Below, piece after piece: positions 5,430 to 23,335 of a stretch of 35,776 nt of DNA. Each line of letters begins with the position of its first letter. Positions within the stretch are counted from its first letter, which is position 1. Under the pieces are notes generated by a model. That model saw only the letters and a list, made by a program, of their open reading frames with translations, was not told where the DNA came from and did not search any database. The position numbers and the translations under genes were made by a program. The DNA is from a virus. The stretch covers positions 1-35,776 of the IMG/VR virus record IMGVR_UViG_3300024518_001238; one strand, given 5' to 3'.

Positions 5430-5776
5430 TATATTCCTCCACCAAACATACTCATTATGTCACCCATTCCCTCTGGGGGAGAACCAGGTTGTGTTGGTAG
5501 TTCTCCTGGAGGTGCTGGACTTGGCATTGGACTTGGAGCAGGTCTTTCAGGCGCACTCACCTGGGATTCTCGTATAGCCTGTCCATGTATTTGTGACTGT
5601 TGTAATACTGTATCCAATACAGAATCAAGAGACTGTCCTTCAATCATATCAACTCTTTCTGTTTTTTGAGGGCCAAGAATAGCATTGAAGATAATATCCT
5701 GTGTGCCAGCAACCATCTGCATAGCTATATCTATAGGACTCTGTACCTGGTTTGTATCATTTTCTAATTTTACCAT
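5429..5776 (-). CDS. 115-aa Pro/Met-rich protein downstream of portal
   Basis: ATG at 5776 directly follows the portal stop (TAAATG), with AGGGGGA as the ribosome binding site. The first 75 residues are predicted helical; residues about 76-108 are a run rich in Pro, Ser, Gly and Met; the protein ends in a Met/Gly-rich tail. The portal C-terminus has a similar Gln/Pro/Gly-rich composition. Position next to the portal fits a small head-assembly or scaffold-like protein, but no family is recognised. Coding status is well supported by the seamless junctions on both sides. Confidence 0.65.
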   Translation of the reverse strand: MVKLENDTNQVQSPIDIAMQMVAGTQDIIFNAILGPQKTERVDMIEGQSLDSVLDTVLQQSQIHGQAIRESQVSAPERPAPSPMPSPAPPGELPTQPGSPPEGMGDIMSMFGGGI

Positions 5777-7648
5777 TTATCCCCCTATTCTCTGTCCAGA
5801 GGGCATATTTACGGGTCCACCATTCGGACTACCTAGCGCATTGCCCAGACTATCTATTCCACCCGGACCCTGTGGATAAACACTCGGCTGTCCCTGTTGT
5901 GATGCTACCCGTCCCTGCTGAATCATTCCTTCACCCGGACGAGGCAGTTGTGGGCCTCCAAGATTCATGGAGCCTACATTACCACCGCCACCCATCTGGG
6001 GAGAGACTGACTGTTCCATCTGTTGTCCCAATCCCATCTTTTCCAGAAGTTGCTGCATCTGGGCCTGTAGCATCTGCTCATTGTTAAGTAGCTGCTCTGC
6101 CCTGATCTGCATGGATTCTTCCAGCGGATTGGTAATACCAGCACGGCGTTGTGCTTCATACATGGATATGATCCCTGCTGACTGCAACCGCATGGCAAGC
6201 AGGGCTTCACGTTCCCTTTCTTCTGGTGCTTCTGCCTTGACCTTTACTATATTCTCGTACATTCCCCTGATATCATCAGGTTCAATGCTCTGGTCAAAAC
6301 TATTAATATCACTACGGGCATGAACCGTAATCCTGCCCTTGATCTTGTTCTCTACCAGCTTGGCAAACTTGGAATTGCTTTCTTCAATAGACCTCTGCAT
6401 TCCGTCTGCTACTGCCTGGAACACCAATCTTCCCATACCAGCCAGCACGGATATACCGAATCCTGCCGATACACCCCTTGGTCGCATACCGCGTACCACG
6501 TTGGGGAAGGTAGCAGCCTCGATATAGTTCTGTACCGTGGCTAATTGCTGGTACAGGTCTGGTGGAACCTGTCCCATAGGAGATAGACCTACGCTTACGC
6601 CCGGAGGCAGGTAGTTCTTTGCTCCGAACATCTCGTAGTTCTGCATTGCTTCTTCTGACAATGATCTCGGACCCTGGAAATCTATGGTTCTCCATGCTAC
6701 TGTACGGATAATTGCCTGTATCTGTGTTACCAGCCGGGCTTCCTCGTCCAGTAGGCTCTTAACATTCTCAAGAATACCTGAGTATCTTTCATGGGGTGGC
6801 CCATCATCATAGGTATATGACCTGTTAGGCACGTTCTTGGTATAGGGTAAGAACCCATATCCGTGCTTGTATGGACCCCAGATGAACTGGTTGTCCACCA
6901 GGTAGGCGCACCACTCTTCATCCCAGTATTCCATCCATGTGGCGCAGCCACTCAGTTCCATATCTACTGTAGGAACCCATTCCGGGTATCTTTTCTTGAT
7001 ATCAGTGACAGGACGCTCGTAAAACTCTATTGCCCACTTCATCCGGGTCTTGGAATCGTCCCATACAAGGTTTATAGGGCGTACTACTGACTCATCAATG
7101 GGCCATGTAATGCATCGCATATCCATGAAATCTTCCAGTGCGGTCTTGTATGCACTGAGATCATCACCGAAATCATCAAAATGGGGAGCATTGGGCCACT
7201 TGTCCGTATCGAACATGGTCTTTCTGAAGGAGATTCCATACAAAAAGCTCTGGGCTACGGACGTTCTAAGCACTGGAGTCTTGAAGGACTGCCATGCGCC
7301 CTGGTAAAACTTCTTCAGTCTTTCGGCACGGGCCTTTGCCCTTGGGGATGAAGGAACATCTATCGCCAGATTGTTGACATCAACATGGTCTGTGGCGATA
7401 TTTACTATTGCGTTTGCTGTTCCCGGCCATACCGGGTCTATTCCTTCTGGTGCAGGGACTCGCCTGTTACCCCTGTAGTATTCCTCAGCAGTCCTGCATT
7501 GTGCATGAAATGAGTTGAAATACTGCCGGCTTTCCTTGAATAAGGTAAGTATCTCATCCAGTGAAGGGGGTTTATCCCTTTCCTGTTCTGTTTCCCAGTA
7601 TCCTGGGACTGCTATACCATCCTGTCTGTCCTGTGAGGAGATTACCAC
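5777..7648 (-). CDS. Portal protein
   Basis: This is a 623-residue head-to-tail portal candidate. The dodecameric portal forms the DNA entry and exit vertex and docks terminase. The assignment rests on size, on position just after terL, and on a portal-like layout: a mixed N-terminal wing and clip region with many aromatic residues (about 30-330), a helical stem and crown region, and a Gln/Pro/Gly-rich C-terminal tail of about 90 residues. I place the start at GTG 7648 because AGGAG sits seven bases upstream. The frame also opens at TTG 7672, which would add eight residues but has only a weak site. The gene overlaps the end of the 78-aa gene only if the TTG is used. Confidence is high for a portal-type structural protein, moderate for the exact start. 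Confidence 0.82.
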   Translation of the reverse strand: MVISSQDRQDGIAVPGYWETEQERDKPPSLDEILTLFKESRQYFNSFHAQCRTAEEYYRGNRRVPAPEGIDPVWPGTANAIVNIATDHVDVNNLAIDVPSSPRAKARAERLKKFYQGAWQSFKTPVLRTSVAQSFLYGISFRKTMFDTDKWPNAPHFDDFGDDLSAYKTALEDFMDMRCITWPIDESVVRPINLVWDDSKTRMKWAIEFYERPVTDIKKRYPEWVPTVDMELSGCATWMEYWDEEWCAYLVDNQFIWGPYKHGYGFLPYTKNVPNRSYTYDDGPPHERYSGILENVKSLLDEEARLVTQIQAIIRTVAWRTIDFQGPRSLSEEAMQNYEMFGAKNYLPPGVSVGLSPMGQVPPDLYQQLATVQNYIEAATFPNVVRGMRPRGVSAGFGISVLAGMGRLVFQAVADGMQRSIEESNSKFAKLVENKIKGRITVHARSDINSFDQSIEPDDIRGMYENIVKVKAEAPEEREREALLAMRLQSAGIISMYEAQRRAGITNPLEESMQIRAEQLLNNEQMLQAQMQQLLEKMGLGQQMEQSVSPQMGGGGNVGSMNLGGPQLPRPGEGMIQQGRVASQQGQPSVYPQGPGGIDSLGNALGSPNGGPVNMPSGQRIGG

Positions 7649-7658
7649 TTCTCTTCTC

Positions 7659-7895
7659 CTATTCCAGTTCAAATTCCCTGGGATAGTTAGTCACCAGCCA
7701 TGTTACCGCACCATTATATAGGGCTAATGGACTAACATATAGTGTTGATATTCCCTGTCCATCAAAGGCAAAATACGAATATGCTCCTATCTGGCTATTG
7801 GTACATCCTCTTGACCTGGCTGCTTCCATCACCCAGTAATGCTTTGGATCATCTCCAAGTTTACATAGATCATTCGTATACGTAATAGTAAACAT
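7659..7895 (-). CDS. 78-aa hypothetical protein between terL and portal
   Basis: ATG at 7895 lies six bases after the terL stop codon and the TAG stop is at 7659-7661, close to the portal start. Only a weak TAGGT site precedes it, so translation may depend on coupling to terL. The product is aromatic-rich (many Tyr, Phe, Trp) and has two cysteines. It looks like a small soluble beta-rich protein, perhaps a packaging or head-assembly accessory. No family is recognised. Confidence 0.6.
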   Translation of the reverse strand: MFTITYTNDLCKLGDDPKHYWVMEAARSRGCTNSQIGAYSYFAFDGQGISTLYVSPLALYNGAVTWLVTNYPREFELE

Positions 7896-7901
7896 TATAA
7901 C

Positions 7902-9350
7902 CTACAATAACTGCAATTGATCCTGTCTGTCACGGATTTTATCAAGGATTCGTTCCCTTGCATACCTTTGTGCTGATTTCTGTGCGCCACTGGGTATCTG
8001 GTTGTTGTTCGCCTCGTTCTGGGTAGGCGCGTATCTACCACCCATTCTGCGTGAGCGCATACCAGTATCCGTAGTGGGTGCTGGAGCGCAGCAGTTCAGG
8101 GCCAGTGCAAGGGCGAACACCTCGTCATCGTGTTCTCCGGGTGGAGCTTCGGCCTTTGGCCTACCGCTTGGCAGCTTTCGCACCTGAAATGCCCTGAGTT
8201 CACGGAGCAATGCGTCTATCTGGGGGAACCGTATACTTTCCCTCTCCATTGCTACCGATAAATCCTGTAGTATGCTTTCCCTTGAAGCCTGTGTGAATAT
8301 GAAGGGTTCGGCTGGTACTCCAGCTTCCAGCATTTCGGACATGAACATATCACCACCCATGCCAGTAGCGTCAACCATTACCCTGCTCAAACCCCATTCA
8401 TTGGCAATCCGTACTATGGAATCCCTTTGCAGCACCCAGTTCTCCGAGTCATCCCACCTATGGTGAAAGACTACCCGGCGTTCCCGTGCGTCCATTACAG
8501 TCAGTACAGATGCGTCAACCTTGCGCCCAAGATCCAGTCCCCCGACATACTCTGCTCCGGGGAGAGCCTCTGGCAGCAGATCACCAGCAATACATCTGGA
8601 TACGTTATTGAAATAGCCAGCGTCCTCATTAAAGTTCGCCAGGTACATACGCTCCCATACCCTGATGGGGAGTAAGTCCTTATCTCCTTCTACTTCAGCT
8701 ACGTCCTCGGGACTGAGGGTAGGATTGTCATATACCGTTGCATGGAAGTAGGCGTGGTTCTCCCTGCCACCTGAAGCAGCAGCGCAGCCCCTTCGGAACC
8801 AGTGGTCGGAATAGAGGGAGGGAATCCCCTCAAATACGGCTCTACTCATCCGTCCGGGGCTACGCAGTGTGGGGAGAAGTTTTTCAAATGCCTTGTTAGC
8901 GATATCCTGGGACTCAGTGACCCACAGGAAATCCAGACCAGCAGTCTGCAAGGCTTCCGGGTTATGACAGGACTTCACTTCCAGTAGACCCCATGGTCTT
9001 ACCTGTGATCCCCTTAGATATATAGTACGGTCATCCTGGTTAGTCCTGTATATGAATGCCGGGGGAATCAGGGACATGAGTTCGTTCCATACCTGGTTGG
9101 ACTGGGGAAAGCTGGGTACAGCAATCCATGCATGGAAAGGTGGAACCATAGAGTTGTCCACTGGTAATACCATCGCGTCCTGGTAGGCTTTAAGAAATTC
9201 TCCAAAGGCAGACCGGGACTTACCGAAACGCCGGGCCATCTCCAGCCACTTGTTCTGGGAGACAGACTGGTGTATTGGCCTCTGTCCAGCGTGCGGACTA
9301 TAGTAATCAGAAAGATTTACATTCGTTTCAACTAACTGCTCAGTAGTCAT
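7902..9350 (-). CDS. terL: Terminase large subunit (packaging ATPase-nuclease)
   Basis: This 482-residue protein powers DNA packaging through the portal and cuts the concatemer. The ATPase half has an arginine-type Walker A, R40-R-F-G-K-S-R46, and a Walker B strand ending in the catalytic acid, L-D-F-L-W-V-T-E146. The nuclease half has an RNase H-like fold with acidic residues D273 (G-L-D-L-G), D327 (V-M-V-D-A-T-G) and D408/D409 (H-D-D-E). All of these are in the expected order and spacing. The last 60 residues are polar and probably disordered, as in many TerL proteins. The start ATG at 9350 follows the 92-aa gene closely. Assignment as TerL is secure; whether packaging is headful or cohesive-end cannot be told from this sequence. 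Confidence 0.95.
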   Translation of the reverse strand: MTTEQLVETNVNLSDYYSPHAGQRPIHQSVSQNKWLEMARRFGKSRSAFGEFLKAYQDAMVLPVDNSMVPPFHAWIAVPSFPQSNQVWNELMSLIPPAFIYRTNQDDRTIYLRGSQVRPWGLLEVKSCHNPEALQTAGLDFLWVTESQDIANKAFEKLLPTLRSPGRMSRAVFEGIPSLYSDHWFRRGCAAASGGRENHAYFHATVYDNPTLSPEDVAEVEGDKDLLPIRVWERMYLANFNEDAGYFNNVSRCIAGDLLPEALPGAEYVGGLDLGRKVDASVLTVMDARERRVVFHHRWDDSENWVLQRDSIVRIANEWGLSRVMVDATGMGGDMFMSEMLEAGVPAEPFIFTQASRESILQDLSVAMERESIRFPQIDALLRELRAFQVRKLPSGRPKAEAPPGEHDDEVFALALALNCCAPAPTTDTGMRSRRMGGRYAPTQNEANNNQIPSGAQKSAQRYARERILDKIRDRQDQLQLL

Positions 9351-9352
9351 AG

Positions 9353-9631
9353 TTATTTATTCCATCTGGATTCTACAGTATTATCATATCTTCCATAATT
9401 TCTACCGACTCTGTTCTTCCTTCCACCTTTTCGGAATTTGTCAAAAAGAAAACATGATCCTTCCTGGGGTTTCTTTGATGGGTCTATTTGCTCTTCGGCC
9501 CATATTTTAATATCTGCTCTATTTGTTCCATACCCTGTTATTCCTGTAACCACCCAATCCTCAATTATGTGGTAGAAATGATCCAAGTCCTGCTGACTGT
9601 CAAAATCAACTGTATGCCTGTATATTGTCAT
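9353..9631 (-). CDS. 92-aa hypothetical protein between terS and terL
   Basis: The start ATG at 9631 overlaps the terS stop as TAATG and the stop lies two bases before the terL start, so all three are probably co-translated. The N-terminal half is acidic and aromatic (D-F-D, D-H-F-Y, E-D-W motifs); the C-terminal third is basic (K-F-R-K-G-G-R-K-N-R), as in small nucleic-acid-binding proteins. A packaging accessory role is suggested only by position. No family is recognised. Confidence 0.62.
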   Translation of the reverse strand: MTIYRHTVDFDSQQDLDHFYHIIEDWVVTGITGYGTNRADIKIWAEEQIDPSKKPQEGSCFLFDKFRKGGRKNRVGRNYGRYDNTVESRWNK

Positions 9632-10945: not shown

Positions 10946-11698
10946 ATGACTAACTCAAATTTACTGGAATTCTCGCCGATGGCCGACAACGTAAAAACAT
11001 TACGATTATTAAAGCTATTAGGCATCGCCAGGTCGCGCGGTTATGTATTCAACCTCCCGTCAGGTTTTACTTGTCCTGGCGCATTGGACTGCTTAAGCAA
11101 GGCCGACAGAGTGACAGGCAAAATTACGGACGGCAAAAATACACAATTTCGATGCTTTTCGGCCACTACTGAAGCACTACGCACGCGTGCGAGGGATCAA
11201 GGCTGGCGCAATTTCGATAAACTCCGAGGCCTTGACTATGAACAAATGGTCCAGATTATCAACGAGTCATTGCCAGAGAATGCCGAAATTGTCAGGCCTG
11301 GAGTGAGAGGCGATTTCTTCAATCAGACCTATTTTGAAGCATGGCTAGCTGTCGCCCGGTTACGTCCGGGAACTCTGTTCTATTGCTATACCAAGTCTGT
11401 CAATTATGTTGTCGCTAATCTGGACCGTATACCAGAGAATTTCATAATCAATGCATCGCGCGGCGGCCGATATGATGACCTGATAGATCAGTATAATCTA
11501 AAGGTCGCGGAAGTAGTATATTCGCCAGAAGAAGCAGAGGCTAAAGGATTACCTATAGACCACGATGAAACACACGCAATCACAAAAACAGGAAATTTTG
11601 CGCTACTGCTACACGGCCAACAACCTAAGGGATCAGAAGCAAACCAGGCCATTAAGGATATGAAAGCTAATAACGTGGAGTTCGCATACTCTCGATAA
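10946..11698 (+). CDS. GP88-like early protein
   Basis: This 250-residue product is encoded by the first gene after the early promoter; AGGA lies about seven bases before the ATG. Residues 37-50 (L-P-S-G-F-T-C43-P-G-A-L-D-C49) and a third cysteine at F-R-C70, then a segment with many Arg and aromatic residues, recall the phage gene product 88 (GP88) family, whose members share a Cys-rich motif after a Leu-Pro/Ala-Pro-x-x-S-G stretch. The family has no established function that I know. The late H-D-E-T-H-A sequence (about 206-211) could bind metal. As the first early gene it may act in host takeover. A 16-bp hairpin follows directly. Family assignment is by recall of the pattern and is tentative; coding status is secure. 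Confidence 0.7.
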   Translation: MTNSNLLEFSPMADNVKTLRLLKLLGIARSRGYVFNLPSGFTCPGALDCLSKADRVTGKITDGKNTQFRCFSATTEALRTRARDQGWRNFDKLRGLDYEQMVQIINESLPENAEIVRPGVRGDFFNQTYFEAWLAVARLRPGTLFYCYTKSVNYVVANLDRIPENFIINASRGGRYDDLIDQYNLKVAEVVYSPEEAEAKGLPIDHDETHAITKTGNFALLLHGQQPKGSEANQAIKDMKANNVEFAYSR

Positions 11699-13592: not shown

Positions 13593-13901
13593 ATGCAAAA
13601 TGCAAAAGAAAAGGCATACCTCAGACCAAGACTGGAGACTAATGCGGAGATAGAAAAAAGATTAGGCTGTAGCCTGTCAGACAAGTTCAGAGAATTGACC
13701 AACGAACAGTTAGGCGTTGTTGATATCGCCGAAAGGCTCGGCATGAATCGGCAACAGGTAGACAGGAGAATCCTGGAGCTTGGCCTTGTCAAGCAGACCG
13801 TGCTCATAGATCCACGCGTGGAGGTGATAATGATAAAGGCACGTAAGAGGGTGGACGAACCACAAATCCAGGTACAGGAACATAAAGAGGAGAAGAAGTA
13901 A
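13593..13901 (+). CDS. 102-aa helix-turn-helix protein
   Basis: Residues about 35-65 read as a helix-turn-helix (L-T-N-E-Q-L-G-V-V-D-I-A-E-R-L-G-M-N-R-Q-Q-V-D-R-R-I), close to AsnC/MarR or sigma-4 type DNA-binding helices. The C-terminal 20 residues are charged. It ends with E-H-K-E-E-K-K inside a 36-bp direct repeat shared with the end of the next gene. Its stop overlaps the next start as TAATG. It is probably a small phage transcription regulator; the target is unknown. Confidence 0.65.
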   Translation: MQNAKEKAYLRPRLETNAEIEKRLGCSLSDKFRELTNEQLGVVDIAERLGMNRQQVDRRILELGLVKQTVLIDPRVEVIMIKARKRVDEPQIQVQEHKEEKK

Positions 13902-13911
13902 TGACCACTAC
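13876..13911 (+). repeat. 36-bp direct repeat at gene junction, copy 1
   Basis: This 36-base sequence is identical to 14268-14303. It covers the last codons of the HTH gene (E-H-K-E-E-K-K), its AGGAG site, the TAATG stop/start overlap and the first codons (M-T-T-T) of the next gene. It is therefore a repeated translation-junction unit. Confidence 0.9.
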
Positions 13912-14293
13912 TACTATAGAAACCATAACTTTAGACGGGTACTGTTGGCAGTGCAAAATACATACCCCCCACCTAGTCTGGTTGGAGCCTGACTATGACA
14001 ATAAGTGTACCGTATGTCAGGCTCGCCACTGTTACGCAACAGATGGAGAACAGGACTGCATCGACACCTTCAATGACTGCGCAACGTGCGATCAATACTA
14101 TTGGTCGCAAACGCACCCAGATTTCTGCACCGGAGCAGATTGTGCTTGCCACGAGGGAGAACAAGAACGCGAACATGATGATAGCCACTGGGACAATTTA
14201 GGTATGCCATTAAATGTGTCTATGGATGACCTGATACATCGAAAATGGTGGCAAGGCTGTACATTAGAGGAACATAAAGAGGAGAAGAAGTAA
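13901..14293 (+). CDS. 130-aa Cys-rich zinc-binding protein
   Basis: The protein starts inside the first 36-bp repeat and ends inside the second, so its two boundaries are copies of each other. It has about a dozen cysteines, many as C-x2-C pairs (C-W-Q-C, C-T-V-C, C-A-T-C), with His between them, which suggests two or more zinc sites. The last 40 residues are acidic and Trp-containing. The whole gene lies between direct repeats, as a cassette would. No family is recognised. Confidence 0.65.
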   Translation: MTTTTIETITLDGYCWQCKIHTPHLVWLEPDYDNKCTVCQARHCYATDGEQDCIDTFNDCATCDQYYWSQTHPDFCTGADCACHEGEQEREHDDSHWDNLGMPLNVSMDDLIHRKWWQGCTLEEHKEEKK

Positions 14294-14303
14294 TGACCAC
14301 TAC
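14268..14303 (+). repeat. 36-bp direct repeat at gene junction, copy 2
   Basis: Identical to 13876-13911. It again contains E-H-K-E-E-K-K, the AGGAG site, TAATG and M-T-T-T codons. The 392-base spacing equals the length of the 130-aa gene unit. Confidence 0.9.
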
Positions 14304-15803: not shown

Positions 15804-15823
15804 ATGCCATTTACTAAAGAGGA
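15804..15823 (+). repeat. 20-bp repeated start cassette, copy 1
   Basis: The first 20 bases of this gene (M-P-F-T-K-E-D codons) are identical to 16289-16308, the start of the next gene. The rest of the two proteins is unrelated. Confidence 0.85.
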
Positions 15824-16265
15824 CCAGGAACTAGCCGCGCAGAATGTTATAAGCTGGCTAACAGATTTCTTTAAGTGGGAAACCTACGATGAGCAAGAGA
15901 TAGACGAGTTAGGGATGCTACGTGGTTTCACATGGGAAGGCCATCGTGATCCCATTTGGGCTGACGGGGAGATGACAGAGTATCTAAAAGAAAGATTCAC
16001 GCCCAGGAATCCGATGACACAGATGCTAGTGGGGGAGCAAAGTTCTGGGGATAGCTGCCCTATAGCTAATACAATTCGGCGAGGGTTCCCTAATTTTAAT
16101 AAAATGATTATTGAAGTATCTGCTGAGACTATCAGCATTGAGGATGCAGAAACCTACGAGATAGTAAACATTCCATGCCAGAATACGCCAGTAGATTTCT
16201 TTATATATGCCTTTGACGCTGGACACTTGCCGATGTATCAACACCAAGAAGAATACACAGATTAG
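15804..16265 (+). CDS. 153-aa hypothetical protein
   Basis: A double AGGAGATA tract precedes the ATG at 15804. The protein begins M-P-F-T-K-E-D, identical to the following gene, and then diverges completely. It is acidic and aromatic-rich, mixed alpha/beta, with two isolated cysteines. No family is recognised. The shared start suggests that gene ends were exchanged or copied. Confidence 0.6.
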   Translation: MPFTKEDQELAAQNVISWLTDFFKWETYDEQEIDELGMLRGFTWEGHRDPIWADGEMTEYLKERFTPRNPMTQMLVGEQSSGDSCPIANTIRRGFPNFNKMIIEVSAETISIEDAETYEIVNIPCQNTPVDFFIYAFDAGHLPMYQHQEEYTD

Positions 16266-16288
16266 CAAATAATAAAAGGGAGATGACC

Positions 16289-16308
16289 ATGCCATTTACT
16301 AAAGAGGA
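16289..16308 (+). repeat. 20-bp repeated start cassette, copy 2
   Basis: Identical to 15804-15823; it encodes M-P-F-T-K-E-D at the start of the HTH_17 gene. Confidence 0.85.
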
Positions 16309-16471
16309 TGTATTAAAACCACTCGATGTACAAAAGCTTTTAGGACTTTCAAAAACAACTGTAGCGGAGTTGCTTAGAAGCGGAAAGATCAGACACCAAC
16401 GTGCAGGGCGTAAGTACTTGATATCTAGGCAAGCAGTAGAAGATTTTGTAAATAACAAAACGGAAGAATAA
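16289..16471 (+). CDS. 60-aa HTH_17 (excisionase/MerR-like) DNA-binding protein
   Basis: The protein reads P-L-D-V-Q-K-L-L-G-L-S-K-T-T-V-A-E-L-L-R-S-G-K-I-R, followed by R-A-G-R-K-Y-L-I-S-R-Q-A-V-E-D-F-V, the classic winged helix of excisionase-family (HTH_17) proteins. Such proteins bend DNA at att sites or regulate promoters. I start at ATG 16289 because GGGAG is six bases upstream; the earlier in-frame ATG at 16283 has no room for a site. No integrase is visible, so a regulator role is as likely as a true excisionase. Confidence 0.8.
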   Translation: MPFTKEDVLKPLDVQKLLGLSKTTVAELLRSGKIRHQRAGRKYLISRQAVEDFVNNKTEE

Positions 16472-19139: not shown

Positions 19140-19514
19140 ATGAGCGTTGCATACAAACATACTGTATTTGAAAACGGTTGCCGTGTACGCAATGGGAAGG
19201 ATGATGTTATGTTCCAGCATAACAACTGCTTTACCTGTCCCCTTCCCATGTGTGTTCTCGACTACAACCAGGGTGGATCTAGGGGTAGGGCATTAAAAAG
19301 ACTCAGGGTTTATCCTGACATACATGGCCTTGCCCGTTGTCCCGAGGAAAGTAAATCCGTAATGGTAAAGATAATAGCCACAGATCATAAGGTCACTGTC
19401 CGTACTGTGTGGCGGTGGCTTAAAGAGTTTGTGGAAGTTAGTGGAAACCGGGAGCAGTTTCTAGGAAATGAACTTTTACTAGGAGTGGAATCATGCCAAC
19501 CCAAGGAGCTATGA
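19140..19514 (+). CDS. 124-aa Cys-rich helix-turn-helix protein
   Basis: The start follows the loader stop in a TAATATG arrangement without a strong ribosome binding site. C30-x2-C33 and C38 with further Cys at 14 and 67 suggest a metal site; residues about 75-97 (V-K-I-I-A-T-D-H-K-V-T-V-R-T-V-W-R-W-L-K-E-F) form a helix-turn-helix. It overlaps the methyltransferase start by 22 bases. It may be a regulator of the early region; the family is not recognised. Confidence 0.62.
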   Translation: MSVAYKHTVFENGCRVRNGKDDVMFQHNNCFTCPLPMCVLDYNQGGSRGRALKRLRVYPDIHGLARCPEESKSVMVKIIATDHKVTVRTVWRWLKEFVEVSGNREQFLGNELLLGVESCQPKEL

Positions 19515-20029
19515 ATCATGTAAGCCTGTTTACAGGCTATGAAGGATTTGGACTAGGACTAAAGATGGCAGGAATGCCCATAAGGACGGTACTTTATTGT
19601 GAGAACGAACCTTACGCACAAGAGATACTCAGAGCCAGAATCAAAGAAGGATACCTCGATGACGCTCCCATCTGGCCTGATATCAACGATTTGCCCGGAT
19701 CACTCTTTGCTGGAAAAGTGGACATCATCACTGCCGGGTTCCCGTGCCAGCCACATTCAGTCGCAGGACACCGACAGGGAGAGTCCGATGAGCGCAATCT
19801 CTGGCCTCAAACGAGGCGAATTATTGATGAGATACGACCGTCCATTTGCATGCTGGAGAACGTACCAGGGATCTCTGTTCGACCTGACGATGGACGGCCA
19901 GCATATGGGGGCGTTGTACTCGGAGAGCTTTCCGAACTCGGGTATGATTGTGTCTGGACAACTGTATCAGCTTCCGACTCAGGCGCACCCCATCTCCGCA
20001 AACGATGGTGGGTTATGGCCCACGCCTAA
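19493..20029 (+). CDS. DNA cytosine-5 methyltransferase, catalytic half
   Basis: This 178-residue product carries motif I (L-F-T-G-Y-E-G-F-G-L-G-L), the catalytic motif IV (G-F-P-C-Q-P-H-S, with the cysteine nucleophile), motif VI (E-N-V-P-G) and motif VIII (G-A-P-H-L-R-K-R-W-W-V) of C5 DNA methyltransferases. It would transfer methyl from SAM to cytosine. AGGAG lies seven bases before ATG 19493. The frame stops after A-H-A, before any target recognition domain or motif X. Those are encoded in the +1 frame, in the gene starting at about 19827. So the enzyme is split, frameshifted or assembled from two chains. No restriction endonuclease is visible, so it is probably an orphan or anti-restriction enzyme. 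Confidence 0.88.
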   Translation: MPTQGAMNHVSLFTGYEGFGLGLKMAGMPIRTVLYCENEPYAQEILRARIKEGYLDDAPIWPDINDLPGSLFAGKVDIITAGFPCQPHSVAGHRQGESDERNLWPQTRRIIDEIRPSICMLENVPGISVRPDDGRPAYGGVVLGELSELGYDCVWTTVSASDSGAPHLRKRWWVMAHA

Positions 20030-20510
20030 AGCCGGGAACCCCGGAAGCCGTCCAAACGGCAAAGGTGGCAAAATTCTCAACGAAGAAGTGCAGATTGCCG
20101 AAGGCTTGAGGAATCGTGGTGAATTATGGCCCACGCCAACGGCAAGGGATCATAAAGACGGTACTGCTGAATCCTGTAGCAACGTGCCTGAGAACGGACT
20201 GCTTGGCAGAACGATCCATGAAGGACAGAACCAGCCCACCGCAGCACTAAATCCTGATTGGGTGGAATGGCTGATGGGAGTACCCATAGGCTGGAGTTCT
20301 CCAGAGCCTTTACCAGAGGGCGCATGGGAAGAATGGATAACTGACATTACCTCTGGCACCTGGTGGGACACTGAACGAGATATCCCAAGGGTTACAACTG
20401 AGAGAACCAACAGGGTGAAGCGTTTGAAAGCCCTGGGGAATGGCATTGTGCCTCGCTGTATACCAGTATTTTTAGGAGTAGTACCATGTATAGTCCAGGA
20501 GACAGACTAA
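19827..20510 (+). CDS. Methyltransferase C-terminal/target-recognition-like protein in the overlapping frame
   Basis: This frame runs +1 to the catalytic half and overlaps it by 203 bases. From ATG 19827 it has a pattern known from free-standing phage methylase-related proteins: E-S-F-P-N-S-G-M...G-Q-L-Y-Q-L-P, two W-P-T-P motifs, then L-N-P-D-W-V-E-W-L-M-G-V-P-I-G-W, and motif X-like R-L-K-A-L-G-N-G-I-V-P. The frame opens further upstream (to 19599) but that part has no recognisable motif. The start is uncertain: GAGG lies ten bases before ATG 19827. Possible outcomes are a separate subunit, a frameshift fusion or a broken gene; conserved sequence in both frames argues against plain decay. 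Confidence 0.7.
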   Translation: MRYDRPFACWRTYQGSLFDLTMDGQHMGALYSESFPNSGMIVSGQLYQLPTQAHPISANDGGLWPTPKAGNPGSRPNGKGGKILNEEVQIAEGLRNRGELWPTPTARDHKDGTAESCSNVPENGLLGRTIHEGQNQPTAALNPDWVEWLMGVPIGWSSPEPLPEGAWEEWITDITSGTWWDTERDIPRVTTERTNRVKRLKALGNGIVPRCIPVFLGVVPCIVQETD

Positions 20511-20726: not shown

Positions 20727-21338
20727 ATGGAAGAATTACTAACCACAGAAGAAATAGAAAGTATGTGGGATTGGTGGGCTAAAACCTCACTAATGACCGG
20801 ACACTACCCTTCTACCCTGACTGACCGAGAAAAGAGAGTTATGGATTTGAGATACGGACGATCTCGTTGCAGCATTCATGCCGGGCCTGAAGCCCTACAA
20901 TGCCCTAAATGCTATATAAGACGGTCGGATGAAGAGATCAATAAAATTCTAGATAATAAAAATTGGATGATTAGTAGGTGGAATAAGGGCAATGATAGAT
21001 TGTACGCAATGACCATATATAGGAAAGATGGGACTTCAGAGAACATGCGAGTTACTCCTTACAAATTTGAGGAAATTGATAGATACATTCTTGCTCCTAG
21101 ACCAAACTGGCGCGTACAGCATACACAGAAAGAAGTAGGTATAGCATTGGGACTACAGGACAAGAGAGTCGGCCAGATAGAGGCTAAGGCCGTACGAAAG
21201 ATAAAATCCCATATGGTTACACTAACGAACAAATTTGCCAGAATGGTAGAAATAGCAGACAGTTTTTCACTTGAAATGGAAGAGGATTCAGATGGCAAGA
21301 GAACCTTAGTTGTAAAAGATATAAGGGCTGATGATTAG
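20727..21338 (+). CDS. Sigma-70 region 4-like protein with split HTH, paralog 1
   Basis: Residues 31-44 read L-T-D-R-E-K-R-V-M-D-L-R-Y-G, the start of sigma-70 region 4. The helix-turn-helix itself appears only at 132-160 (H-T-Q-K-E-V-G-I-A-L-G-L...R-V-G-Q-I-E-A-K-A-V-R-K-I-K). An insert of about 87 residues with C48 and C59-x2-C62 lies between. In ordinary sigma factors the two parts are only a few residues apart. The next gene but one (21382) has the same plan. GGAG is close before ATG 20727. It probably acts as a transcription factor, perhaps a sigma-like or anti-sigma regulator for late genes; regions 2 and 3 are absent. Confidence 0.72.
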   Translation: MEELLTTEEIESMWDWWAKTSLMTGHYPSTLTDREKRVMDLRYGRSRCSIHAGPEALQCPKCYIRRSDEEINKILDNKNWMISRWNKGNDRLYAMTIYRKDGTSENMRVTPYKFEEIDRYILAPRPNWRVQHTQKEVGIALGLQDKRVGQIEAKAVRKIKSHMVTLTNKFARMVEIADSFSLEMEEDSDGKRTLVVKDIRADD

Positions 21339-21351
21339 TAGGGAGATAGTT

Positions 21352-21381
21352 ATGAGTTATTGGAGTGAGGAGAAGGATTAA
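21352..21381 (+). other. 9-codon micro-ORF with strong ribosome binding site
   Basis: GGGAG at the ideal six-base distance precedes M-S-Y-W-S-E-E-K-D-stop, whose TAA abuts the ATG of the next gene (TAAATG). Its GAGGAGAAGG codons serve as the ribosome binding site of that gene. It may be a coupling leader peptide or the remnant of a lost gene. Confidence 0.4.
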
Positions 21382-21990
21382 ATGGAAACTTTAACAAGAA
21401 ATCAATTACTGGATTTGTCCCAGTGGGCAATGAAAACACAATTCATGGCAAAGCATTATTCGCCCGGGTTAAACGACCGGGAAAGACAGGTGTTGCTTTT
21501 AAGATATGGGTGGGATTATTGCAGCAACCGAGAATGTAAAAAATGCTGGGAGCTTATACCGACCTCTACCTGGAATACTTGGACTCAGTTTATGACCGGG
21601 AACGAAACCAGCTTCTTTAAAATCCCCACCGCCGAGGAAAGAAGGGCGATGCACCAAGACATGGAAGTTGAAAGTGGATTGATTGATCCGACAGGTCAAT
21701 ACATCCAGCCTCAGCCAGTGGTCAGGACCGTGACCACATCAATATCCGTACCCCCAGACGAAGATTTTCACTGGCGTCCGGTTACGGTTAACGATATATT
21801 ACACCAGGACACCCACCGAAGAAAAAGGAAACCCAAACCACACACACAAAAGGAAATCGGCGTTGAATTGGGTGGAATAACGGGTGGCAGAGTCAGTGCT
21901 ATCGAAGCCAAGGCCATCAGAAAGAACCGTTACCATCTGCACCAGTTATGGAAGAAATTTACCACGATGGTAGAAGCTACGGATGATTAG
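21382..21990 (+). CDS. Sigma-70 region 4-like protein with split HTH, paralog 2
   Basis: Residues 30-43 (L-N-D-R-E-R-Q-V-L-L-L-R-Y-G) match the start of sigma region 4 and residues 154-181 (H-T-Q-K-E-I-G-V-E-L-G-G...R-V-S-A-I-E-A-K-A-I-R-K) match the HTH, with an insert of about 110 residues carrying C47, C52 and C55. The N-terminal 30 residues also align with paralog 1 (S-x-W/W-W...M-x-x-H-Y-x-P/S). The inserts themselves are not alike. The pair is a tandem, strongly diverged duplication. Its end overlaps the rusA remnant by eight bases. Confidence 0.7.
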   Translation: METLTRNQLLDLSQWAMKTQFMAKHYSPGLNDRERQVLLLRYGWDYCSNRECKKCWELIPTSTWNTWTQFMTGNETSFFKIPTAEERRAMHQDMEVESGLIDPTGQYIQPQPVVRTVTTSISVPPDEDFHWRPVTVNDILHQDTHRRKRKPKPHTQKEIGVELGGITGGRVSAIEAKAIRKNRYHLHQLWKKFTTMVEATDD

Positions 21991-22023
21991 CATAGAACTA
22001 CCATACCTACCACCAAAGGAGTT
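21986..22023 (+). repeat. 38-bp direct repeat, copy 1 (duplicated rusA 5' end)
   Basis: Identical to 22976-23013, which is codons about 3-15 of rusA. Here it continues an ATG at 21983 to give M-I-S-I-E-L-P-Y-L-P-P-K-E-F and then a stop at 22025-22027. It is a truncated rusA start, and its AAGGAG codons (K-E) act as the ribosome binding site of the radical SAM gene. Confidence 0.9.
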
Positions 22024-22026
22024 TTA

Positions 22027-22980
22027 ATGGAAGTCAGACTAACACATATTGACGGTAAACTACCAAACCTTGCGTTGATGAAACTGGCGCACTGGCACAA
22101 GGAACAGGGTGACAATGTTACTCTAGCCAGAACACCATCGCCTGATATGTTTGAACCGCAATACGACAAGGTGTATGGATCAGCAGTATTTCAATGGTCA
22201 TCCAAACGTGTTGTTAAGGATTTGCTGAACGCCTTCCCCGATGCGGTTGTTGGCGGTACTGGTACAAACGAAACCCACACAGTTGAAGGACTGCTGGAAG
22301 TGGACGAGTACGAGCATTACAACTATTCGATATACCCGGAGTACGAATGGAGTATTGGTTTTTCGCAACGTGGATGCCGGTTGAATTGTGGCTTTTGTGT
22401 AGTGCCCAAAAAAGAGGGTAGACCAAGAAGCGTTAATTCGATCTGGGATATCTGGAGACCTGGCACTGAACGTAATATCTGTTTACTGGACAACGACTTT
22501 TTCGGTCAAGCAAAAGATCAATGGGAAGCCAGGATTGAGGAAATAAAGGAAGGTAATTTCAAAGTAAATTTTAATCAAGGCATAAACGTCAGGTTAATCA
22601 ATGATGAAAGCGCAAAGGTTTTATCAGAAGTGGAATATTATGACGCACGTTTCAAAAACAAAAGACTCTATACAGCATGGGACAACGTGGGGCAGGAAGA
22701 TATATTCTTCAAGGGTTTCAACCAGTTAACCAACGCAGGTATCAACCCGAATCATATAATGGTTTATATGTTAATTGGTTATAAGCCAGGGGAAACAATG
22801 GAAGAAATCCTATACCGATATCAAAAATTAAAGGATGCTGGATGCCTTCCATATCCGATGGTTTACAACAACGAAAACAAAAGACTCAAAAGATTCCAAA
22901 GATGGGTGGTTACTCGTATTGATGCCCACGCTACATGGGAAGAGTTTGAAGCATCATATAAGAGCCAGTATGACTATTAG
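22027..22980 (+). CDS. Radical SAM protein, inserted cassette
   Basis: This 317-residue protein has the radical SAM cluster motif C117-x3-C121-x2-C124 in G-C-R-L-N-C-G-F-C. The N-terminal 80 residues (D-K-V-Y-G-S-A-V-F-Q-W...A-V-V-G-G-T-G) look like the B12-binding-type Rossmann segment seen before the core in MiaB-like and other radical SAM enzymes; the rest forms the expected alpha/beta barrel. Chemistry could be methylthiolation, methylation or another modification of RNA, nucleotide or protein; the substrate is not evident. The ATG follows AAGGAG by five bases and overlaps the stop of the rusA remnant as TAATG. The gene is bounded by 38-bp direct repeats, which marks it as an acquired or duplicated-end cassette (moron-like). 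Confidence 0.85.
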   Translation: MEVRLTHIDGKLPNLALMKLAHWHKEQGDNVTLARTPSPDMFEPQYDKVYGSAVFQWSSKRVVKDLLNAFPDAVVGGTGTNETHTVEGLLEVDEYEHYNYSIYPEYEWSIGFSQRGCRLNCGFCVVPKKEGRPRSVNSIWDIWRPGTERNICLLDNDFFGQAKDQWEARIEEIKEGNFKVNFNQGINVRLINDESAKVLSEVEYYDARFKNKRLYTAWDNVGQEDIFFKGFNQLTNAGINPNHIMVYMLIGYKPGETMEEILYRYQKLKDAGCLPYPMVYNNENKRLKRFQRWVVTRIDAHATWEEFEASYKSQYDY

Positions 22981-23335
22981 CATAGAACTACCATACCTAC
23001 CACCAAAGGAGTTCAGTCGCAACTCAAGGGTACACTGGACCGCACTCCACAGGGTTAAGGATCAGGTCTATGATGATATCCTGATTACCCTGCTGGAGTC
23101 TGGTTTCAGAAAGGATGTCCAGCCACTGGACACGGCTGTTGTAACCTTCACATTCTATATACCAGACAAGCGAAACCGTGACGCTGACAACCTGATTACC
23201 TCAGCCAAGCCCATGCTTGATGGACTGGTGAGGGCTGGAGTGATAGCTGACGATAACCTCATGGCAATAGGAGTCCCGGTTTATAAGTGGGAGAGCAGAC
23301 CACGTAAACCGGGAACTCTGATTACGGTGGAGTAG
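22970..23335 (+). CDS. rusA: RusA-family Holliday junction resolvase
   Basis: RusA is a small dimeric endonuclease that cuts four-way junctions and helps phage recombination and packaging. This 121-residue protein has the family signature: a beta-rich N-terminus, then R-N-R-D71-A-D73-N-L-I...K80-P-M-L-D84-G-L and V-I-A-D94-D95-N, matching the catalytic aspartates and lysine. I start at ATG 22970, which overlaps the radical SAM stop by 11 bases; the upstream in-frame extension (from 22835) lies inside that gene and is not RusA-like. Its 5' end is the source of the repeat at 21986-22023. Confidence 0.9.
   Translation: MTISIELPYLPPKEFSRNSRVHWTALHRVKDQVYDDILITLLESGFRKDVQPLDTAVVTFTFYIPDKRNRDADNLITSAKPMLDGLVRAGVIADDNLMAIGVPVYKWESRPRKPGTLITVE
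22976..23013 (+). repeat. 38-bp direct repeat, copy 2 (in rusA)
   Basis: This is the intact copy, encoding the start of rusA (I-S-I-E-L-P-Y-L-P-P-K-E-F). It is identical to 21986-22023; the distance is 990 bases, the length of the radical SAM unit. Confidence 0.9.

Follow-up and report, generated by a model that had tools for sequence, protein, structure and literature searches.

The DNA analysed here, called the window throughout, makes up an entire IMG/VR record (35,776 bp), a metagenome-derived virus contig. The locus comprises three consecutive genes on the + strand, encoding a small sigma-70 region-4 protein (21382-21990, 202 aa; Pfam Sigma70_r4, E 2e-9), a radical SAM protein (22027-22980, 317 aa; phrog_9298, E 3e-55) and a RusA-like Holliday junction resolvase (22970-23335, 121 aa; phrog_34, E 2e-15). 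A repeat search revealed two 38-nt direct copies on the same strand, at 21986-22023 and 22976-23013, which were 100% identical and spaced 990 nt apart, exactly as the first-pass annotation of this DNA had reported. No exact direct repeat in the 35.8-kb record is longer, and since the whole window holds just three exact direct repeats of at least 16 nt (38, 36 and 20 nt), chance is excluded. GC content (42% versus 44% for the genome) was uninformative. Elsewhere in the record, a C5-cytosine methyltransferase (19493-20510) is split over two overlapping frames by a frameshift, either real or from sequencing, with 19493-20029 corresponding to the N-terminal part and 19599-20510 to the C-terminal part of its relatives, and 10946-11698 encodes a Gene product 88 family protein (PF17338, E 9e-32).

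The repeat had been described as the start of rusA. It does carry the rusA 5′ end, with the first 12-13 codons, but it also holds the end of the sigma-like gene with its stop codon, and copy 2, in which the rusA 5′ end is in place, begins just within the gene, two codons past the present start. In copy 1 the sigma-like gene ends GAT GAT TAG, of which the repeat includes ATTAG; in another frame these bases give ATG ATT AGC, the start of rusA. This start opens a rusA stump on the + strand (21983-22027) of 14 codons, MISIELPYLPPKEF-stop, whose stop shares bases with the ATG of the radical SAM gene (TAATG); here the reading frames confirmed what had been claimed. The AAGGAG of copy 1 lies 5 nt 5′ of the radical SAM ATG, which suits the proposal that the duplicate was recruited as a ribosome-binding site, but a Shine–Dalgarno sequence of the gene's own, acting as microhomology at the joint, fits equally. 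In a relative, L029, AGGAGTT precedes the radical SAM ATG by an equal distance, so the two origins are indistinguishable. At the other end, the radical SAM stop (TAT TAG) comes from copy 2, and the present rusA ATG (22970) lies inside the radical SAM 3′ end, giving the N-terminus MTISIELP... where the stump has MISIELP.... The insert between the copies (22024-22975) comprises 952 nt and is coding apart from 2-3 nt, leaving no room for a promoter or terminator, so that the label of moron does not hold in its strict sense. We reconstructed the empty joint between the sigma-like gene and rusA as GGATGATTAGCATAGAACTACCATACCTACCACCAAAGGAGTTCAGTCGC, and an in-silico join showed that deleting either 38-bp copy together with the insert keeps both genes open.

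The match of the radical SAM protein to phrog_9298 covers nearly its full length, and C117, C121 and C124 of its CxxxCxxC motif were invariant across 33 aligned sequences; Pfam PF04055 alone scored under its cut-off (19.1 versus 29.5 bits). The AlphaFold2 model (pLDDT 89) combines an N-terminal Rossmann-like domain with a radical SAM barrel, so that the protein has the profile match, the motif and, in the model, the fold of the radical SAM family. VIA-align returned AprD4 as the best match (Z 17.3, 4.2 Å over 289 residues), followed by TsrM, MgmA, MtaB, MiaB and RimO (Z 15-17 for the whole set). Plain Foldseek with the model returned nothing at E ≤ 0.001; its top PDB rows, dihydropteroate synthase and triosephosphate isomerase, were dismissed as generic barrels, and phmmer matches in the PDB to PPR proteins and antibodies were dropped as chance. 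The profile and structure searches suggested in the first-pass annotation, with MiaB and B12-binding enzymes among their targets, therefore upheld a radical SAM fold resembling AprD4 and TsrM, but the features of the MiaB and B12-binding classes were absent. A MiaB/RimO methylthiotransferase was rejected, as there is no cysteine before C117 and no TRAM domain, the protein ending about 10-20 residues past the barrel; the NCBIfam methylthiotransferase models scored 11-15 bits against cut-offs above 250. A cobalamin-dependent enzyme was rejected on the absence of DxHxxG in residues 1-110, although the modelled N-terminal domain still aligns structurally with cobalamin-dependent radical SAM enzymes.

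A small-alignment search of IMG/VR gave 396 relatives of this protein among 498 candidate stretches, and 89 were found in bacterial and archaeal genomes. The nearest were 67-69% identical, and the close subfamily within phrog_9298 spans 50-69% identity across phages. The gene itself is thus old and widespread in phages, and only the insertion could be recent. Its neighbours elsewhere are mixed, including DNA methyltransferases, a Mom-like protein, nucleases and nucleotide enzymes. A lasting partnership with rusA was rejected, as rusA occurred in just 3 of 44 radical SAM records. Members of phrog_9298 commonly have a C-terminal tail that the window copy lacks. Among the radical SAM C-termini of L027-L106, a QLxLF-like peptide was present in 23-26 of 54 family tails, compared with about 1-4% of control windows. 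Such peptides resemble sliding-clamp binding motifs, which suggests that members of the family may bind the sliding clamp. The window copy ends SQYDY, and that of L028 ends in read-through of its own repeat; neither has a QLxLF-like tail, which is what truncation of the 3′ end at the joint would produce.

The two remaining repeats of the window, also on the + strand, have the same placement, so that its three longest direct repeats each flank a single gene at gene junctions. The 36-bp copies lie at 13876-13911, covering the end of one gene (13593-13901) and the start of the next, and at 14268-14303. Between them is a gene for a 130-aa protein of no family (13901-14293) whose first and last codons belong to the repeat: its last residues, EHKEEKK, come from the end of the upstream gene and its first, MTTT, from the start of the downstream gene. 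Compared with these two neighbours, it proved to be a paralog of neither. The 20-bp copies are the starts of two genes in succession, one at 15804-15823 (ATGCCATTTACTAAAGAGGA), opening a gene for a 153-aa protein of no family (15804-16265), and the other at 16289-16308, at the start of an HTH/excisionase-like gene (16283-16471). When one repeat copy and the enclosed gene were removed in silico, the neighbours stayed open in all three cases of the window.

Filled and empty versions of such sites were found in other phages. Relatives of the sigma-like gene occur in unrelated phages (L022-L026) at 63-76% protein identity, and the DNA similarity to them (74-83%) stops at 21985, one base short of copy 1. 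The shared DNA (21362-21985) is sharply delimited, starting at the ribosome site and ending right ahead of the stop codon, and in L022-L026 its context is terminase and portal genes; within the window the gene is paralogous to 20727-21338. By these alignments, the small sigma-like gene is mobile in its own right. In L024 and L025, independent contigs whose filled alleles are 99.8% identical over the 600 bp compared, the relative of the sigma-like gene is followed by an insert of 627 bp that encodes a GNAT acetyltransferase and is flanked by a 20-bp duplication (GAATAACACGGCACGACAAC). As in the window, the inserted gene ends on the duplicated stop and the ATG of the next gene lies in the insert tail. 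L026 has an empty joint with one copy, and its flanks are 92.6 and 93.8% identical to those of the filled contigs; this site is empty too in L022 and L023, which are more distant, making gain the simpler reading for L024/L025. A second case was found in L046 (1251-1975), where a 624-bp GNAT-type gene sits directly behind a radical SAM gene. It has a 49-bp duplication, identical at most positions, and leaves 19 codons of the following, HNH-like gene as a stump (MSIKTENGRRGFPCRKHKI-stop); L040, L041 and L043 are empty at this position. Two more filled/empty pairs carried duplications of 22 and 12 bp.

An indel scan of all fetched contigs yielded about 13 distinct gene-sized indels, grouped into events by eye, of which four had duplications of 12-49 bp, one had a duplication of about 9 bp and the remainder overlapped by 0-5 bp. 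The duplications listed measure 38, 36, 20, 20, 49, 22 and 19 bp, with no fixed length. We found no terminal inverted repeats at the insert ends, which matched no better than shuffled sequence, and saw no transposase in the inserts. A transposable element with target-site duplication was rejected on these grounds, and the spread of overlap lengths together with the lack of inverted ends favours illegitimate joints over a transposase.

Repeats of this kind were also surveyed more widely. For radical SAM genes we compared 55 non-redundant loci, counting that of the window. Exact flanking repeats of at least 12 bp occurred at nine, against 0.09 expected from random pairing of upstream and downstream ends; some of the nine share one lineage, leaving about six independent cases. 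The locus in L028 has a 19-bp flanking repeat and that in L033 an imperfect one of about 135 bp. In the latter (L033:3842-5038), the diverged repeat, which takes in the 3′-terminal codons of the radical SAM gene, recurs upstream of that gene, so that the neighbouring gene shares its tail. Over all called genes on IMG/VR contigs, repeats of at least 14 bp flanked about 1% (10/1021), with a null of 0. In nine named cultured phage records, junction repeats flanked 5 of 480 genes against 1.5 expected, a weak excess, so that the effect should not be called universal. Gene calls in these genome-wide surveys were mechanical and the rates are approximate. The comparison of 9/55 with about 1% indicates that radical SAM genes are over-represented and that the pattern is not theirs alone.

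The first-pass annotation had read the locus as an insertion that duplicated its target. The duplication gains support from the two further cases in the window and from the repeats and filled/empty sites elsewhere, but the direction of events at this locus is one that we infer from those other cases. The proposed relative with the sigma-like gene directly before rusA did not turn up in protein or DNA searches: among the records that these searches could reach, from which very near ones may have been absent, we found no close relative of this phage, either with or without the radical SAM gene, in IMG/VR by the exact repeat or by the radical SAM, rusA, DnaC-like and first sigma-like proteins, or by DNA in phages. 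A terminase search led to phage L012/G001, whose terminase is 92% identical; this 22.6-kb sequence covers structural genes only and is thus uninformative on the radical SAM locus. Along 5728-9356 the window and L012 share a portal gene 90% identical, with no blastn-level similarity just outside this stretch, where tblastn still finds L012 tail genes at 74-98%; by this comparison there is apparent modular exchange beside the packaging genes. Another phage, G005 (the L029 record), has four structural proteins in common with this one (25-47%), and its radical SAM gene (67%) likewise closes the early operon, in a slot comparable to that in the window; the gene could therefore be older in this lineage. 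In the tree, L027 and L029 formed a pair (97/88) with the window protein branching outside, which argues against simple descent shared with G005.

Taken together, we consider it likely that a radical SAM open reading frame was inserted into the junction between the sigma-like gene and rusA, and that the junction was duplicated by two overlapping non-homologous joints. The incoming frame would have entered where the stop of the sigma-like gene and the start of rusA overlap. Two independent joints, non-homologous and probably guided by microhomology, would have overlapped by 38 bp and so left the junction present twice. Copy 1 would preserve the stop of the sigma-like gene and, in the 14-codon stump, the native start of rusA; the stump would bring the Shine–Dalgarno AAGGAG and the TAATG coupling to the insert. 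Copy 2 would supply the insert's stop codon, the duplicated TAG of the sigma gene, and restore the rusA 5′ end, with the ATG placed in the insert's tail. Joints that overlap in this way would survive as both neighbours stay intact and the insert is translated; both the microhomology at the joints and the selection for overlap are features that we infer. Recombination between the repeats would remove the radical SAM gene cleanly and leave an intact rusA. Alternatively, repeats that were already present could instead mediate deletions.

The main rival is module exchange, by which a phage with the sigma gene next to rusA recombined with one carrying a radical SAM gene and rusA in an out-of-register crossover, fusing the 5′ end of the first phage's rusA to the DNA immediately preceding the radical SAM gene of the second and leaving the stump as a scar. 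Such an exchange yields the same final sequence, and it is in keeping with a sigma-like gene that moves between unrelated phages and whose homology stops exactly at the repeat; L027 has a radical SAM gene and a rusA relative within one operon, though not adjacent. It requires, however, identical rusA 5′ ends in both parents, and plain insertion suffices for the filled/empty pairs. The rusA start beside the radical SAM gene also looks rebuilt, while that of the stump matches in length the one of L027 rusA (MLRIELP), but as other RusA starts vary in length, this argument on polarity is weak. We regard module exchange as unlikely. Less probable still is a dedicated mobility system that inserts single-gene cassettes by staggered nicking and fill-in or through a phage annealing recombinase at forks. 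That one architecture recurs in several phages, with three instances in the present genome, would suit such a system, but the duplications range over 9-49 bp, insert ends share no common sequence or inverted repeats, the inserts hold no transposase and many gene-sized indels overlap by just 0-5 bp. That a chimeric assembly joined two variants at the 38-bp repeat is very improbable: although this is a single metagenome-derived contig known without its reads, stops, starts and spacing are functional on both sides, the family core of the window protein is normal, and the allele shared by L024 and L025 shows that such structures are real.

Repeat-flanked gene gain is of a kind already published in mycobacteriophages. 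In cluster C1, LRRHood and Cali differ by a 1.35-kb segment with 29-bp direct repeats that are single-copy in empty relatives, and the authors left gain versus loss open (PMC3029335). That segment, like the one in the window, lies at a gene end with direct repeats at both ends, but it holds four genes instead of one, and the passages on it describe no downstream stump or reuse of stop and start. Empty relatives with one copy, as for LRRHood, were found here for the pairs L024/L026 and L046/L040. The morons of lambdoid phages, as outlined there, are extra genes between otherwise contiguous ones, as the window insert would be; strict morons have their own promoter and terminator (PMC3029335), whereas the window insert, coding over its whole length, depends on borrowed signals. 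The PeSL cassettes of T4-like phages (Arbiol 2010; Comeau 2014), cited in PMC4503421, also link repeated boundaries with gene shuffling, but they are recurrent promoter/stem-loop motifs, and each window repeat is a locus-unique gene junction. Start-associated sequences of cluster K mycobacteriophages are repeats at gene starts too; they are one motif at many genes, in contrast to two copies each at consecutive junctions in the window (PMC3203893). Campylobacter phages with numerous radical SAM genes, and with CDSs that have repeats at their borders, have also been described (PMC2853527). What is added here is the anatomy, with the stop reused, the start rebuilt and the stump serving as leader, together with the finding of three cases in a single genome and of several pairs of filled and empty sites. 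We found no general account of junction-duplicating inserts in the literature, of which coverage was partial.

A broader and more doubtful idea, which we put forward only tentatively, is that stop/start junctions are general, perhaps enzyme-assisted, landing sites for single genes in phage operons. Were this true, inserts would duplicate the junction, use borrowed translation signals and be able to leave by repeat recombination, and phages would have a reversible pool of single-gene cassettes that needs no transposases, with the repeats marking recent arrivals. It has long been asked how phages acquire single genes without damage to operons that are so tightly packed, and duplication of the stop/start junction would solve this in one step, leaving both neighbours whole and the newcomer translated at once. 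Junction repeats would also offer a simple signature of recently gained genes in any phage, together with a testable route for their loss.
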